Source: Clostridia bacterium DTU025
Lineage (GTDB): Bacteria > Bacillota > DTU025
Direction: 5' to 3'
Length of the DNA stretch: 62,519 bases
Assembly: GCA_001513145.1 (NCBI GenBank)
Contig: LFSP01000041.1
Location: 16,405-78,923, forward strand
This document shows positions 15,739 through 29,582 of this stretch, in pieces. The stretch's first letter is position 1. The number at the start of each line of letters is the position of its first letter. The notes below the pieces were generated by a model. It was not told where the DNA came from and did not search any database. It was given only the letters and a program-made list of their open reading frames with translations. The translations under genes and the position numbers were made by a program.

Positions 15739-16951
15739 GTGCATGCTTTCAGCTATCCCGCGAAGCAGGGTCGCCCTGGTGGCGCTCCTGCTTTTCGTCA
15801 CCGCGTTCTTGGCTGGCTGCGGACGGGACAAGCAAGTGCCCACGCAAGCGCGCGAGCCCTCTGCGCGGCCTGACTCCAGCTACACCATGGTGATTCGGGG
15901 CAGCGAGCGGCAGGACCTCATGCCGGATCCCGAGCTTTTCCCCATTGAGGACGCCCAGCCTGCCGAGGCTGGAGGGGCACCGACGTCAAGCTATGATGAA
16001 GTCGAGGTCACTCCGCTCCCCGTGGAGCAGGTTGGCGAGCCCCTGGAGCCAGGCAGCCTCGCCGGGGCGAAGCTCGCCATCATCATAGACGACCTGGGTG
16101 GAGCCGTTACCGCCACCCCGGAGCTCATGCAGTTGCGCGCGCCCCTCACCGTGGCGATAATGCCAGGCGTGGGCCATGCCGAGGAGGAGGCGAGGGCCGC
16201 GGCGGAGAGCGGGTTCGCGGTGCTCCTGCATCAGCCCATGGAACCCCTTGACGGCAGCGTGTCCCCGGGGCCAGGCGCTATCACCGTGGGCATGACCCCC
16301 GACGAGATTCGCAGCGTGCTGCAGTACAACCTCTCCAAGGTGCCGGGGGCCGTCGGCGTCAACAACCACATGGGCTCCAAGGTGACCGAAGATTCCGAAA
16401 TCATGGAAGTCGTGCTCCACGAGGTGTTCGCGAGGGGCCTGTTCTTCATCGATAGCCGGACAAGCTCCAACTCGGTGGTGGCAGACGTGGCCGAGGCCAT
16501 GGGCGCCAGCGTGCTGGAGAACAGCACGTTCCTTGACGGGGTGAACACTGAGGAGTACGTGATCGAACAGATCAGGTCCGCCGCGAAGAAGGCTCACTTG
16601 CTGGGGCAGGCCGTGGCCATCGGCCACGTGCGGCCTGCCACCATCAGGGCGCTGAAGCGCATGATCCCTGAGCTTGAGAAGGCGGGGGTCACCCTGGTCA
16701 CAGTGGACCAGATCGCGCCGCCGATCCCCGACGAGCTGCGGACGCCATCACTCCCTGCTCAGCCTTCCGCCGCTGCGGAGGAAGCGGAGCCTCCGGACGC
16801 CACGGAACCGGTGGAACCTGAGCCGCCGGAGTCCCTCGAGCCTGTTGAGACCGTGGAGCCCGAGCACACGGAGGAGCCGTCACAGAAGCCGCCAGAGCCA
16901 GCCCAGCCGTTCGAGCCCGATTGGCGCCTAAGGCGGGAACCGCAGGCGTGA
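15707..16951 (+). CDS. Divergent polysaccharide deacetylase lipoprotein
   Basis: 414 residues. The N-terminus carries a signal sequence ending in lipobox LAGC (Cys 38), predicting a lipoprotein. AIIIDDLGG (near residue 124), IMPGVGHAEEEARAAAESG (near 150), HQPMEP (near 180) and NNHMGSKVT (near 220) mark the divergent polysaccharide deacetylase family (PF04748, YibQ-like), often found after EnvC/CtpA. The final 70 residues are a Pro/Glu-rich tail, probably disordered and perhaps wall-spanning. ATG 15707 lies 9 bases after GGGAGA and overlaps the ctpA end by 32 bases. Enzyme activity for this family is not proven. Confidence 0.9.
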   Translation: MRPKQSTSQLKCMLSAIPRSRVALVALLLFVTAFLAGCGRDKQVPTQAREPSARPDSSYTMVIRGSERQDLMPDPELFPIEDAQPAEAGGAPTSSYDEVEVTPLPVEQVGEPLEPGSLAGAKLAIIIDDLGGAVTATPELMQLRAPLTVAIMPGVGHAEEEARAAAESGFAVLLHQPMEPLDGSVSPGPGAITVGMTPDEIRSVLQYNLSKVPGAVGVNNHMGSKVTEDSEIMEVVLHEVFARGLFFIDSRTSSNSVVADVAEAMGASVLENSTFLDGVNTEEYVIEQIRSAAKKAHLLGQAVAIGHVRPATIRALKRMIPELEKAGVTLVTVDQIAPPIPDELRTPSLPAQPSAAAEEAEPPDATEPVEPEPPESLEPVETVEPEHTEEPSQKPPEPAQPFEPDWRLRREPQA

Positions 16952-16977
16952 AGTGGGGCTGCGAGCGTCAAGTCAAC

Positions 16978-17018
16978 GCGAGAGAGCCTCCGCCAAGCCA
17001 AGGCGGGGGCTCTCTCGC
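16978..17018 (+). terminator. 17-bp stem hairpin after the division block
   Basis: Arms GCGAGAGAGCCTCCGCC and GGCGGGGGCTCTCTCGC enclose the loop AAGCCAA; all pairs form in RNA except one G-U. It lies 26 bases after the deacetylase stop, so it probably ends that transcript, although no strong U-tract follows (GCTCATTTGTT). The sequence, including the preceding CAAGTCAACGCG, recurs at the end of the two ~450-bp repeats. Confidence 0.65.
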
Positions 17019-17171
17019 GCTCATTTGTTCATCCCTTCATTCCCCGGGTGCAGGTTTGAGGGGCTACGGCGCGGCGAAGCTAGGGCGCGGCGCGGATGGG
17101 GGGGCGCCGGAACGTTGGTGGACACTTGAGTCGGCGAAAGGTTGGGCGGCATGGGCTTCGGGAAAGCGAAT

Positions 17172-17185
17172 CCACAGATCTGTGG
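17172..17185. repeat. Perfect 14-bp palindrome inside repeat A
   Basis: CCACAGATCTGTGG is fully self-complementary, and a degenerate half (AATCTGTGGATC) recurs at 17201-17212. In copy B the same place reads CCACAGATCTGGGG, breaking the symmetry. Confidence 0.8.
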
Positions 17186-17472
17186 AGTTCGCGGCTGCAA
17201 ATCTGTGGATCAGAGGATCTCGCCTGCCGGAATCCTCCAAGTAGAGGACTTGTCCCTGCTGCCGTCACCAGCGTCAATCATGAGGTTAGGCGCGCCCGCA
17301 TGAACACGCCTGCGCACAACCTGTAGCTGCGGGTTTGCTGAACCGCGATGGCCTGAAGTCGAGAGGCAGTTGCAGCCTCCACACCGCCGCCACTTGAACC
17401 CATGGATCAGAGGATTTCGCCAACCGAACTCCTACAACCAGAGAGATAGCCCCCCAGACCGTGGGCGCCAAG

Positions 17473-17523
17473 TCAACGCGGGAGGGCTCCCGCCAAGCCA
17501 CGGCGGAGGCCCTCTCGCGTTGA
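17473..17523. terminator. Hairpin closing repeat A
   Basis: Arms starting TCAACGCGGGAGGG and ending CCCTCTCGCGTTGA pair over about 22 positions with three mismatches, around the loop AAGCCAC. It is the same element as the hairpin at 16978-17018. It may work as a two-way terminator between the upstream plus-strand operon and the converging pdxR gene, whose stop is near 17571. Confidence 0.6.
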
Positions 17524-17570
17524 TCTGACCCTTACCTCGTCGTCACGAGCTCACAGCCTGTCGTTGGGTA

Positions 17571-18971
17571 TCAGGAAGCCCAGGCGGTCTTGAGGAGGCG
17601 CACGGCATCGTGGATCTCGTCGATCCGAAGGGTGGCGAACCCGAGGATGAGGGCGGCCTCGCTTTCCTCGGCCACCGGCCCTGAGCAGTAGTGGGACATA
17701 CCGTACACCTTCACCCCATGCGCCTTCGCTCTCTGAAGCAGCTCAGTCTCGCTCATGCCGTTGCCGACCCTCATGACCAGATGCAGCCCGGCGTCGGTGC
17801 CATCGATCTTGGCGCCAGGCAGTAGCTCTCGGATCGCCGTGACGATGGCCTCCCGCTTCTGCCTGTAGATGATCCTCATGCGGTTCAGGTGGCGCTCGAA
17901 ATGTCCCTCGTCCATGAACCGCTGCAGCGCTTTCTGTTGGATGGTGGGCACAGGGCAGATGCAGAAGCCCAGCTTCTCTTTGTAGCCTTCCAGCAGCTCG
18001 GTGGGGAGCACCATGTAGCTGACGCGCAGAGCAGGGGAAAGCGACTTGGAGAAAGCCCCGACGTAGATGACCCTTCCGTTCCGATCCAGCCCTTGAAGCG
18101 ACGGTATCGGTTTACCGGAGTACCTGAACTCGCTGTCATAGTCATCCTCGATGATGTACCGCCCGGGCCCCTCGCCCGCCCAACTCAACAGCTGAAGCCT
18201 CCTGCTCACAGGCATGATGATCCCCGTCGGGAACTGATGCGACGGCGTGATGCACAGCACGTTGGCCATGCTGCGCTTCAGCTCGTCAAGGCGCACGCCG
18301 TCTTCATCCAAAGATACCGGACGGCACTCCACGCGGTTGCTGCGGAAGATGGCCGGCAGTCGCTCGTAGCCCGGGTTCTCAATGGCGTAGACGGTCTCAC
18401 TGTCAAGTAGCTGAATGAGCAGCTGAAGCAGGAACTCGGTGCCCGAGCTGATCACGATCTGCTCAGGCAGGCAGTTCACGCCCCTGGAGCGGTGCAGGTA
18501 CCGAGCGATGCTGGCGCGCAGCTTCGGGTATCCCTGGGGGTTGCCCGTCCTCAAGAGGTCCTCATCATTCTCGTCGATGACTTCCTTCGTCAGCTTCCGC
18601 CATGTGGAGAACGGGAAGTGGTCTAGGTCCACCCCCTGATAGGAGAAATCAATGGCGTAAGCCGGCTCCGCTTCTATATCCCACCGCTCCGCCTGATGCG
18701 CGCGCCCGATGCTGAAGACGCCGTCCAGCTCAGCTGCGTAATAGCCGCTCTTCGGCTTTGCGATGAGGTAGCCCTCGTCCACAAGCTGGTTGTAGGCCGC
18801 CTCCACCGTGTTACGGCTGCAGCCAAGATGCGCCGCCAGCTTGCGCTTGGACGGCAGTCTCTCGTTACTGGAGATATGCCCGCTGACGATCTCCGCCTTC
18901 AGGAACTCGTACAGCTGCTGGAACATGGGCACGCCAGTCTCCCTGCTGAGCCTCAACGTCATCTCGTTCAT
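17571..18971 (-). CDS. pdxR: MocR/GabR-type regulator, PdxR-like
   Basis: 466 residues: a GntR-type winged helix-turn-helix (about 1-80; LPSKRKLAAHLGCSRNTVEAAY is its core, given here by LAAHLGCSRNTVE) fused to a class-I aminotransferase-like domain. The PLP-binding lysine sits in VGAFSKSLSP near residue 309 and the PLP-contacting Asp in EDDYDSEF near 277. PdxR proteins sense PLP and activate pdxST while repressing themselves. The gene diverges from pdxS across a 119-base gap, the standard layout, so the assignment to PdxR rests on both domain and context. It is the only minus-strand gene in the window. Confidence 0.92.
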   Translation of the reverse strand: MNEMTLRLSRETGVPMFQQLYEFLKAEIVSGHISSNERLPSKRKLAAHLGCSRNTVEAAYNQLVDEGYLIAKPKSGYYAAELDGVFSIGRAHQAERWDIEAEPAYAIDFSYQGVDLDHFPFSTWRKLTKEVIDENDEDLLRTGNPQGYPKLRASIARYLHRSRGVNCLPEQIVISSGTEFLLQLLIQLLDSETVYAIENPGYERLPAIFRSNRVECRPVSLDEDGVRLDELKRSMANVLCITPSHQFPTGIIMPVSRRLQLLSWAGEGPGRYIIEDDYDSEFRYSGKPIPSLQGLDRNGRVIYVGAFSKSLSPALRVSYMVLPTELLEGYKEKLGFCICPVPTIQQKALQRFMDEGHFERHLNRMRIIYRQKREAIVTAIRELLPGAKIDGTDAGLHLVMRVGNGMSETELLQRAKAHGVKVYGMSHYCSGPVAEESEAALILGFATLRIDEIHDAVRLLKTAWAS

Positions 18972-27498: not shown

Positions 27499-28147
27499 AG
27501 CAAGAGTGAACACCGTCATCGGGCCGGTCACCGTTGCGGCATCGGCGCAGGGGCTCTACCGCCTGGACCTGCCCCGCCCCGGCCAGCTGCGCCTTCGCGA
27601 CCTCTGGGCGCGCCTGGGCCTTCCCGACATCGAGCCATCGCCCGCTCGCACCCTCGCAGACTTCGGCATCCAACTGTCGCGGTGCGAGGCTGTGCCCTGT
27701 CAGGCCGCTGCACCCGTTTCTACGGTCTCTGCCCCTGGGGGCGCCCAGCTTTCCCCTGGCGACCTCGTGGCATCCATCTGCGAGGTGGTGGAGCGGTTCT
27801 TCCTGGGTGACTTGGACGGACCCGCGCTCAGCTTCAGCTGGATCCCTGTGGATATGGGCCAACGTTCCCCCTTCAGCAGGGCGGTGATGGAGGGGATGCG
27901 GGCGATACCCGGAGGATTCGTCGCCTCGTACTCCGCCCTGGCCACGGCCGCCGGTGCACCGCGGGCAGCACGGGGTGCCGGCTCAGTGGTGGGCGCCAAC
28001 CCCGTGGCCCTCGTGGTGCCGTGCCACCGGGTGGTGGGGACCGGAGGAAGGCTCACAGGGTACGGCGGAACGCTCCCCCTGAAAGTGGTGATGTTAGCCC
28101 TGGAGGCGCAGATGACGCGGCGACCCGGAGAGCCAATACCTCTGTGA
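27482..28147 (+). CDS. ogt: Methylated-DNA--protein-cysteine methyltransferase
   Basis: About 221 residues. The DNA-binding C-terminal domain has the suicide active site PCHRVV (Cys181) and the preceding winged-helix region with YSALATAAGAPRAARGAGSVVGANP. The N-terminal part (1-110) matches the Ogt N-domain poorly and contains a Pro/Ala-rich insertion. The protein removes O6-alkyl groups from guanine. ATG 27482 follows AGAGGATGG; ATG 27476 is also possible. It overlaps uvrC by 17 bases, so it probably belongs to the SOS-controlled uvr operon, which would be an unusual regulatory link between excision and direct reversal repair. Confidence 0.92.
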   Translation: MTRSVEARVNTVIGPVTVAASAQGLYRLDLPRPGQLRLRDLWARLGLPDIEPSPARTLADFGIQLSRCEAVPCQAAAPVSTVSAPGGAQLSPGDLVASICEVVERFFLGDLDGPALSFSWIPVDMGQRSPFSRAVMEGMRAIPGGFVASYSALATAAGAPRAARGAGSVVGANPVALVVPCHRVVGTGGRLTGYGGTLPLKVVMLALEAQMTRRPGEPIPL

Positions 28148-28444
28148 TCCGACTTGAGGCCTGACGCCGACAGGCTAACCCGCCGGGCGAGGGCGCCACA
28201 GTAGACAGGGGCGTTTGTGAGGAAATCGGACGTTAGGGTTCGTAGATGGCTGCGTCATCAACAAGAGGCCAACACCCGGCCGCTTTGGCGGAAGCCGGCT
28301 CTCTCTTCACATTGAAGACGCCCACCTCAGCGCGTTGCCACTGATCATCCAGAAAGCGGCAGGCCTGTTTTCTGCCCCCCAGACAAGGCTTTCGAGACCG
28401 TTGCATCGATTCCGTTACGAAAGCTGAAGGCGGTAGCCGGCGCC
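28148..28444. other. Non-coding stretch between ogt and repeat B
   Basis: No plus-strand gene. A minus-strand frame open from 28664 to 28233 (143 codons) crosses from repeat B into this stretch; its last 55 residues, such as RFLDDQWQRAEVGVFNVK, look protein-like but have no ribosome-binding site and no family I recognise. It may be a decayed gene fragment or chance in GC-rich DNA. Confidence 0.3.
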
Positions 28445-28892
28445 GCGGCGCGGATGGGGGGCGCCGGGACGCTCGTGGGCACTTGAGTCGGCGAATGGTT
28501 GGGCCACGTGGACTTCGGGAAAGCGAATCCACAGATCTGGGGAGTTCACGGCGGCAAGTCCACGGATCAGAGGATCTCGCCCTCCGAAACCCTACAAGCA
28601 GAGGATTTGCCGCTGCTGCCGTCACCAGCGTTAGCCATAGGGTTAGGCGCGCCAACATGAACATGCCTGCGTATGATCTCTAGCTGCGGATTCGCTGAAC
28701 CGCGATGGCCTGAAGTCCAGAGGCAGCTGCAACTTCCACACCACCATCACTGAAATCCACGGATCAGTGGATTTCGCCAGTTGAACTCCTACCACGAGAG
28801 AAACAGCCCCCACACCGTGAGCGACAAGTCAACACGAGACAGCCCCCGCCTTTGCTTGGCGGGGGCCTCTCGAGTCTTGATTTGACGCTTAC
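28445..28892. repeat. ~450-bp non-coding repeat, copy B
   Basis: Full-length partner of 17086-17535 in the same orientation, again in a gap after the end of a plus-strand operon (here ogt) and again closed by the CAAGTCAAC-flanked hairpin. The GGATCAG(A/T)GGAT(C/T)TCGCC motif recurs at 28563 and 28760. Substitutions are spread along the whole length and do not obviously respect any reading frame. Nothing like target-site duplications is clear at the ends by eye. Confidence 0.85.
28835..28872. terminator. Hairpin closing repeat B
   Basis: Arms CGAGACAGCCCCCGCC and GGCGGGGGCCTCTCG pair with one bulge around loop TTTGCTT. The loop is close to the reverse complement of the AAGCCAA loop found in the other two copies, as if the hairpin centre had been inverted. 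No long U-tract follows. Confidence 0.6.
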
Positions 28893-29010: not shown

Positions 29011-29047
29011 TTGACATAATCAATTGGTAGATTTATTATATTGATTA
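29011..29047 (+). promoter_or_regulatory. Consensus promoter with flanking inverted repeat (DUF2089 operon)
   Basis: TTGACA (29011-29016), a 17-base spacer and TATTAT (29034-29039) make a near-perfect housekeeping promoter. Perfect 8-base arms TAATCAAT (29017-29024) and ATTGATTA (29040-29047) lie just after the -35 and just after the -10, the geometry of a repressor operator. The local AT-richness stands out in this GC-rich window. Confidence 0.75.
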
Positions 29048-29081
29048 CAGGTTGGTCGAAGACGGCAACGGAGGTGATCCT

Positions 29082-29582
29082 TTGGCCAGATACAAGATGC
29101 ACGGTCCGTGTCCAGTATGCGGCGGCAAGCTGAACATCACCAGCTTCCAGTGCCGCAACTGCTCCACGGTGATCAGCGGACGCTTCGAGCCATGCAGGTT
29201 CTGCCAGCTGCCTTCGGAGTACCTGAGCTTTATCGAGGTGTTCCTGAGAAGCAGGGGCAACATCAAGGAAGTCGAGCGCGAGCTGGGGATCTCGTATCCT
29301 ACCGTACGCAACCGTTTGGACCAGGTGCTGGCGGCCATGGGCTACGCGGCGGGGGACGCGTCGTTTCAGCCATCAGGCGTGAGAGGCGCCGAAAGCCGAG
29401 ACGATGGCGCGGGCGCCTCCAATGAAGCAGGGGCGGTGCAGGCGGCGGAAGGCGACGATGCTTCGGACGATGAGGGCTCCGCGACGAGCCCAGATGAGAG
29501 GCGCCGGATAGTGGAGGCGCTTTCCAGGGGCGAGATCAGCGCGGAGGAAGCACTCCAGAGGCTGAAGCACAAAGCTCGATAG
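29082..29582 (+). CDS. DUF2089 zinc-ribbon / helix-turn-helix regulator
   Basis: 166 residues. A zinc ribbon with two Cys pairs, CPVC (residue 9) and CRNC (near 24), plus CRFC near 38, is followed by a helix-turn-helix-like segment (NIKEVERELGISYPTVRNRL, residues about 62-81) that matches DUF2089. An Ala/Asp/Glu-rich linker leads to a C-terminal helical motif, RRRIVEALSRGEISAEEALQ. TTG 29082 is preceded by GGAGGTGATC, a perfect anti-SD match. First gene of a likely operon with DUF4097, PspC and a holin-IV-like protein, and a good candidate for the factor binding the inverted repeat at its own promoter. Confidence 0.85.
   Translation: MARYKMHGPCPVCGGKLNITSFQCRNCSTVISGRFEPCRFCQLPSEYLSFIEVFLRSRGNIKEVERELGISYPTVRNRLDQVLAAMGYAAGDASFQPSGVRGAESRDDGAGASNEAGAVQAAEGDDASDDEGSATSPDERRRIVEALSRGEISAEEALQRLKHKAR

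Follow-up and report, generated by a model that had tools for sequence, protein, structure and literature searches.

A gene-less intergenic repeat family of Clostridia bacterium DTU025 is probably an old IS66-type MITE

A non-coding repeat of about 450 bp is present twice in a stretch of DNA from Clostridia bacterium DTU025 (62,519 nucleotides of contig LFSP01000041.1, hereafter the window). What kind of sequence is this repeat? Three options were offered in the original prediction, namely a non-autonomous mobile element, a family of structured RNAs and a chromosome-organising repeat. The first is favoured by the analysis described here: the repeat is multi-copy with sharp shared ends, one set of termini is found on three interior types, 8-bp duplications are detected at the family level, and a sister genus carries a complete IS66 with the same 11 terminal bases. 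We therefore regard it as highly probable that the repeat is an IS66-type MITE which is lineage-restricted, old and apparently orphaned.

The stretches 17086-17535 and 28445-28892 match end to end in the same orientation, and the mean column identity of about 82% agrees with the roughly 80% estimated previously by eye. The two copies, A and B, share a single 300-nt ungapped block at 84%, and copy B was found with E = 5.6e-122 when the whole genome was searched, which is far above chance. The 5' end, however, had been placed too far downstream. Copy A truly starts at 16961 instead of 17086, and the extra ~125 nt, which include a terminal palindrome, are common to other copies in the genome. Copy A is a full-length long-type element of 575 bp with both termini (16961-17535, plus strand). 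Its core corresponds to 17027-17461 (plus strand), and the stretch reported first begins inside this core. Copy B (28443-28892, plus strand) is a 5'-truncated long-type element, from which the left terminal inverted repeat (TIR) and the initial stretch of the core are missing. At the 5' junction of copy B, 27 nt (28425-28451, plus strand) overlap the long-type core start and show a 96% match to L042:5226-5252. As these 27 nt are shared with a stretch beside a Q-type motif (described below) elsewhere in the genome, the 5' joint of copy B probably arose by recombination or replacement.

Copy A is located 9 nt past the stop of a polysaccharide-deacetylase gene (ending at 16951), and on its other side 35 nt separate it from the stop of a GntR/aminotransferase gene (17571-18971, minus strand). 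Copy B follows a gene of the O6-methylguanine-DNA methyltransferase type (27506-28147) and precedes a DUF2089 gene (29052-29582). A good sigma-70-like promoter match (TTGACA-17-TATTAT, 29011-29039) is located ahead of the DUF2089 gene, shortly after the end of copy B. Both copies had been described as filling gaps at the ends of plus-strand operons. This description is not general: the genes on either side of copy A are convergent, and across the genome all gene orientations are observed, including divergent ones.

Terminal inverted repeats had not been obvious. They exist, and in copy A the 64-nt arms 16964-17027 and 17469-17532 are 77% complementary. The arms escaped notice since the stretch first reported left out the 5' part of copy A, and since this part is genuinely lost from copy B. 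The element ends read GTRAGCGTCAA...TTGACGCTYAC, each within a palindrome of ~75 nt, and at both ends of the long copies this palindrome reads GTRAGCGTCAAGTCAACACGAGAGAGCCCCCGCC-loop-GGCGGGGGCTCTCTCGTGTTGATTTGACGCTYAC. The left terminal palindrome of copy A (16961-17026, plus strand) is GCGAGCGTCAAGTCAACGCGAGAGAGCCTCCGCC-loop-GGCGGGGGCTCTCTCGCG, with a single-stranded DNA fold of -24.4 kcal/mol and a z-score of -7.0. The right terminal palindrome ends with ...TTGATCTGACCCTTAC in copy A (17462-17535, plus strand) and with ...TTGATTTGACGCTTAC in copy B (28817-28892, plus strand). When the palindromes are folded as single-stranded DNA, the z-scores range from -4.6 to -7.9.

Two further features of the palindromes were observed. 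The 7-nt loop is present both ways round (AAGCCAA and TTGGCTT), independent of the core orientation (window 16961-17036, 17462-17535 and 28817-28892; L037, L040, L042 and L044), as if the tip of the palindrome had turned over, for instance through template switching from one arm to the other. In three palindromes (L040:5940-6005, L041:3040-3070 and L043:5975-6030), one arm is swapped for the whole or a part of another shared stretch, CGTTCGGTGTGGTTACTGGCGAGTAGCTGCTCTACAAGTGGCAGGCAG. These arm-replaced palindromes may be either a further subtype or a recombination joint.

Further copies were searched for in the window's own genome, a 97%-complete draft assembly of 2.0 Mb in 52 contigs. The core is present at eight places, and many further places carry the terminal part only. 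Two extra short core fragments were detected with a later query (C35:152752 and C14:29796). The eight core copies are spread over several contigs in both orientations, are all intergenic, and show pairwise core identities of 63%-90%. In the regions fetched around the copies, the repeats are found in intergenic DNA only. Genes and solo elements were read in stretches around the matches, and the number of solo elements elsewhere is probably an undercount. The neighbouring genes are mutually unrelated (carbamoyltransferase, class II tRNA synthetase, lactate racemase, P-type ATPase, solute-binding protein and others), and no transposase is present among those scanned. With few copies, unrelated neighbours and a neutral-looking decay, the repeat does not look like a chromosome-organising one. 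The orientation of the elements relative to the neighbouring genes is mixed, and several solo palindromes are located between divergent genes. The latter point, together with the terminator scan, in which the left palindrome of copy A alone passes as a full hairpin and the palindrome of copy B fails, led us to reject an intrinsic terminator as the main function. As for the history of the copies, a 31-nt deletion is common to the L004 and L006 copies, a 2-nt deletion is common to the L004 and L007 copies, and a 14-nt segment is present only in the L002, L003 and L007 copies. Because derived deletions and the 14-nt segment are shared by subsets of copies, the alignment suggests serial copying, in which existing copies gave rise to others over time.

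The same 11-bp ends are present on three types of element, the long type (575 bp), the palindromic type (~75 nt) and the Q type. In the flanks of the palindromes a second motif, GCGAAAGCGACCCACCCATGGGTCGG, was recognized, with 19 matches in the genome and 0 for the reversed control. The places with this motif correspond to the Q-type elements of 129-373 bp, which start with GTRAGCGTCAA and end with TTGACGCTYAC when a few mismatches are allowed. Genome-wide, the end motif gives 124 matches (61 + 63) with at most one mismatch, compared with 33 (15 + 18) for the reversed control. Three interiors with one set of ends are as expected if a transposase recognises the ends. The second motif is itself palindromic and often borders a palindrome end immediately on the outside, in either direction (L031, L033, L035, L037 and L038; L148-L161), indicating that the elements form nested or recombined mosaics of a BIME-like kind.

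In 27 candidate elements with both ends (60-600 bp), the bases of the left and right flanks were compared for k = 3 to 12 with 2000 permutations. At k = 8 the flanks match at 0.417, compared with 0.260 in the permutations, and none of the 2000 permutations is as high. At the other values of k from 3 to 12, no significant flank match was detected in these 27 elements. An exact 8-bp duplication is present at L158 (AGCCCCGC/AGCCCCGC), and duplications matching at seven of eight positions are present at L148 (GATCAGAC/GATCAAAC) and L042 (ACAGGAAT/ACAGGAAG). All three belong to the palindrome and Q types. The long type keeps both ends in two copies only, both of them old; the flanks of copy A agree at 3 of 8 positions, and those of the C34 copy show no clear match by eye. 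As neither two-ended long copy has a clear duplication, transposition of the long type is inferred from the shared ends and the dispersal.

The family can be compared with IS66 elements. The terminal repeats of IS66 are 20-30 bp long and start with GTAAGCG, and the direct repeats are 8 bp (PMC11946415). The inverted repeat of the IS66-family element ISPsko1 reads GTAAGCGTCC... / GTAAGCGTCCGGCGAACTCACCTT / GTAAGCGTCCGGCG... (PMC12888890), and 8-bp repeats are listed for ISPpa5a and ISPpa7 of the same family (PMC3281130). In the sister genus (G001), we found a complete IS66 of 2,685 bp (L198:2077-4761), which encodes a TnpA-like HTH protein, TnpB_IS66 and the IS66 transposase (TnpC). Both of its ends read GTAAGCGTCAAATAGCGCCCAC (GTAAGCGTCAAAT...), and the first 11 bases are those of the MITE end. 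The family described here is thus similar to ISPsko1, ISPpa5a, ISPpa7 and the sister-genus element in the start of the termini (GTAAGCGTC) and in the 8-bp duplications, and agrees with the sister-genus IS66 at 11 of 11 bases. It differs in that tnpA, tnpB and tnpC are absent, in its length (75-575 bp, compared with ~2.7 kb for IS66), in an unrelated interior, and in ends that are palindromic beyond the first 11 bases. Past these 11 bp the MITE ends are unlike those of the sister-genus IS66, and no similarity of the core to these IS66 loci is detectable.

Of the 11 other genomes of the order, four have matches to the IS66 transposase (PF03050), but the window's genome has none. As this genome is a draft in 52 contigs and 97% complete, the transposase could be absent from the assembly rather than lost. 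A parental IS66 in the same genome is not strictly required, since old MITEs can outlive their parent. We propose that the repeat would be the interior of a non-autonomous, gene-less IS66-type element with GTRAGCGTCAA ends in palindromic TIRs. An IS66-family transposase (TnpA/TnpB/TnpC) acting in trans would recognise these ends and move or copy the element to a new site, leaving an 8-bp duplication. For the 575-bp type we infer this action in trans, and also a later loss of the transposase from the lineage, after which the copies would merely decay.

The core was analysed for coding, structure and decay. The substitutions number 989, 887 and 986 by three-base phase, showing no codon periodicity, and the core consensus has stops in all six frames. 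A coding or pseudogene origin of the core was rejected on these grounds. The substitutions are even along the core, where the variance of 20-column windows is not above permutations (p = 0.45), and no conserved blocks were detected. The consensus RNA fold of the core is not better than that of column-shuffled alignments; on the two strands, 13% and 35% of the shuffles are as extreme. As codon periodicity, conserved blocks and a fold beyond column-shuffled controls are all absent, the core copies look like neutrally decaying DNA, with the limited power that eight copies allow. A further reading, regarded as very unlikely, combines an IS66-driven MITE radiation, in which one end set captured several unrelated interiors (palindrome only, Q and the 500-bp core), with a 500-bp core that is host-derived or RNA-coding and still functional after the transposase loss.

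There is a slim chance that the repeats are structured non-coding RNAs of one family, in which every member is closed by a hairpin resembling an intrinsic terminator. Strong hairpins are indeed present at both ends, and in the whole-copy alignment 16 pairs are changed on both sides, compared with 7.4 in shuffles. Seven of these 16 pairs, however, fall in the terminal palindrome, and within the palindromes compensatory change is no commoner than in shuffles (7, compared with 7.3). On the minus strand of the core the compensatory pairs number 13, compared with 6.7, a modest excess from few copies. Against this, the fold of the core is no better than in the shuffled controls as described above, and the RNAalifold covariation term is unfavourable (+8.3). 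No Rfam match was found over the window, the substitution rate is uniform, and the orientation is unrelated to the neighbouring genes. The covariation expected of a structured RNA in the original prediction is not seen in the core beyond the column-shuffled controls.

The MITE could also have been mobilised by a different DDE transposase that leaves duplications of 8 to 9 bp, for example IS256, and we assign a similarly small probability to this explanation. IS256 makes duplications of 8-9 bp, and IS256-type (Transposase_mut) genes are present in the genome. At least one of them (C1:37860-38861) is open and ends at the contig end; the others are broken or partial, at C41:9115-9603 (three stops) and C43:62-382 (partial) (L145-L147 and L162-L164). 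The surroundings of the C1 and C41 loci, however, contain no GTRAGCGTC end with 0-1 mismatch, where the C1 element reaches the contig end and is not seen whole, and the C43 locus has one unrelated site with one mismatch; apart from this site no matching GTRAGCGTCAA end is located near the C41 and C43 loci. In addition, GTAAGCG is the signature of IS66 (PMC11946415). An IS4-type transposase (DDE_Tnp_1) was also looked for, and none is present in the genome.

It is very unlikely that the family is a palindromic repeat of the REP/BIME kind, mobilised by a Y1 transposase (TnpA-REP/RAYT). The family resembles REP/BIME in its intergenic palindromes and modular mosaics, and in its clustering with a second palindrome. 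It differs from REP/BIME in its target duplications and DDE-type ends, and no Y1 transposase (PF01797) is present in the genome. An 8-bp target duplication with inverted-repeat ends marks a DDE transposase and not the HUH/Y1 mechanism, and such a duplication is seen here at the family level. A simple local duplication decaying by drift, suggested by two copies within 11.4 kb at ~82% identity and named in the original prediction for the case of only two copies, has a negligible probability, as eight core copies with shared ends on several contigs rule it out.

The probable IS66-type MITE described here is restricted in its distribution. The 11 other genomes of the order yielded no relative of the element, and therefore no empty site can be compared. 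In class and phylum searches (a sample of ~400 genomes of the phylum) no homologue was found, and one 33-nt match in a distant genome is regarded as chance. The core also gave nothing in phage and plasmid records, IMG/VR and a GTDB r220 pattern scan. The original statement that the repeat belongs to no described family holds for the sequence itself, but not for the kind of element, which is well known. Among bacterial MITEs, MITECca01 (from IS982) and MITEPsy1 (probably IS5-related) are likewise short, gene-less, dispersed and lineage-restricted, with inverted-repeat ends matching an autonomous IS (PMC9769881, PMC3189936). In the present case the parent family is IS66 with no parent found in the same genome, and the long type is larger than the usual MITE and ends in full palindromes. 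The family is also lineage-specific and intergenic.

Elements of the BOX/RUP/Correia type are modular, MITE-like, intergenic and lineage-specific. Our family shares these properties, whereas its sequence is unrelated and its termini differ. The family itself is apparently undescribed, as far as the searched literature and databases show. No IS66-derived MITE was found under direct phrases in the open-access literature, with ISfinder and subscription journals outside the scope of this search, and the family may be a useful example of such an element. The analysis ties an anonymous repeat to a specific parent family, and the GTRAGCGTCAA ends are a handle for finding such elements in related genomes. 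Caution is needed in the annotation of this lineage, as many palindromic, terminator-like hairpins in its intergenic regions are transposon ends. As for the host, the UvrA of the window shows at most about 70% identity to the listed matches from named genomes, and the best of these are Bacillota-type bacteria. Sporulation and germination genes were also observed, encoding a SipL/LysM protein (L043:4170-5768) and a germination protease (L044:6306-7388), and thus the organism resembles a spore-forming member of a Bacillota-like lineage.
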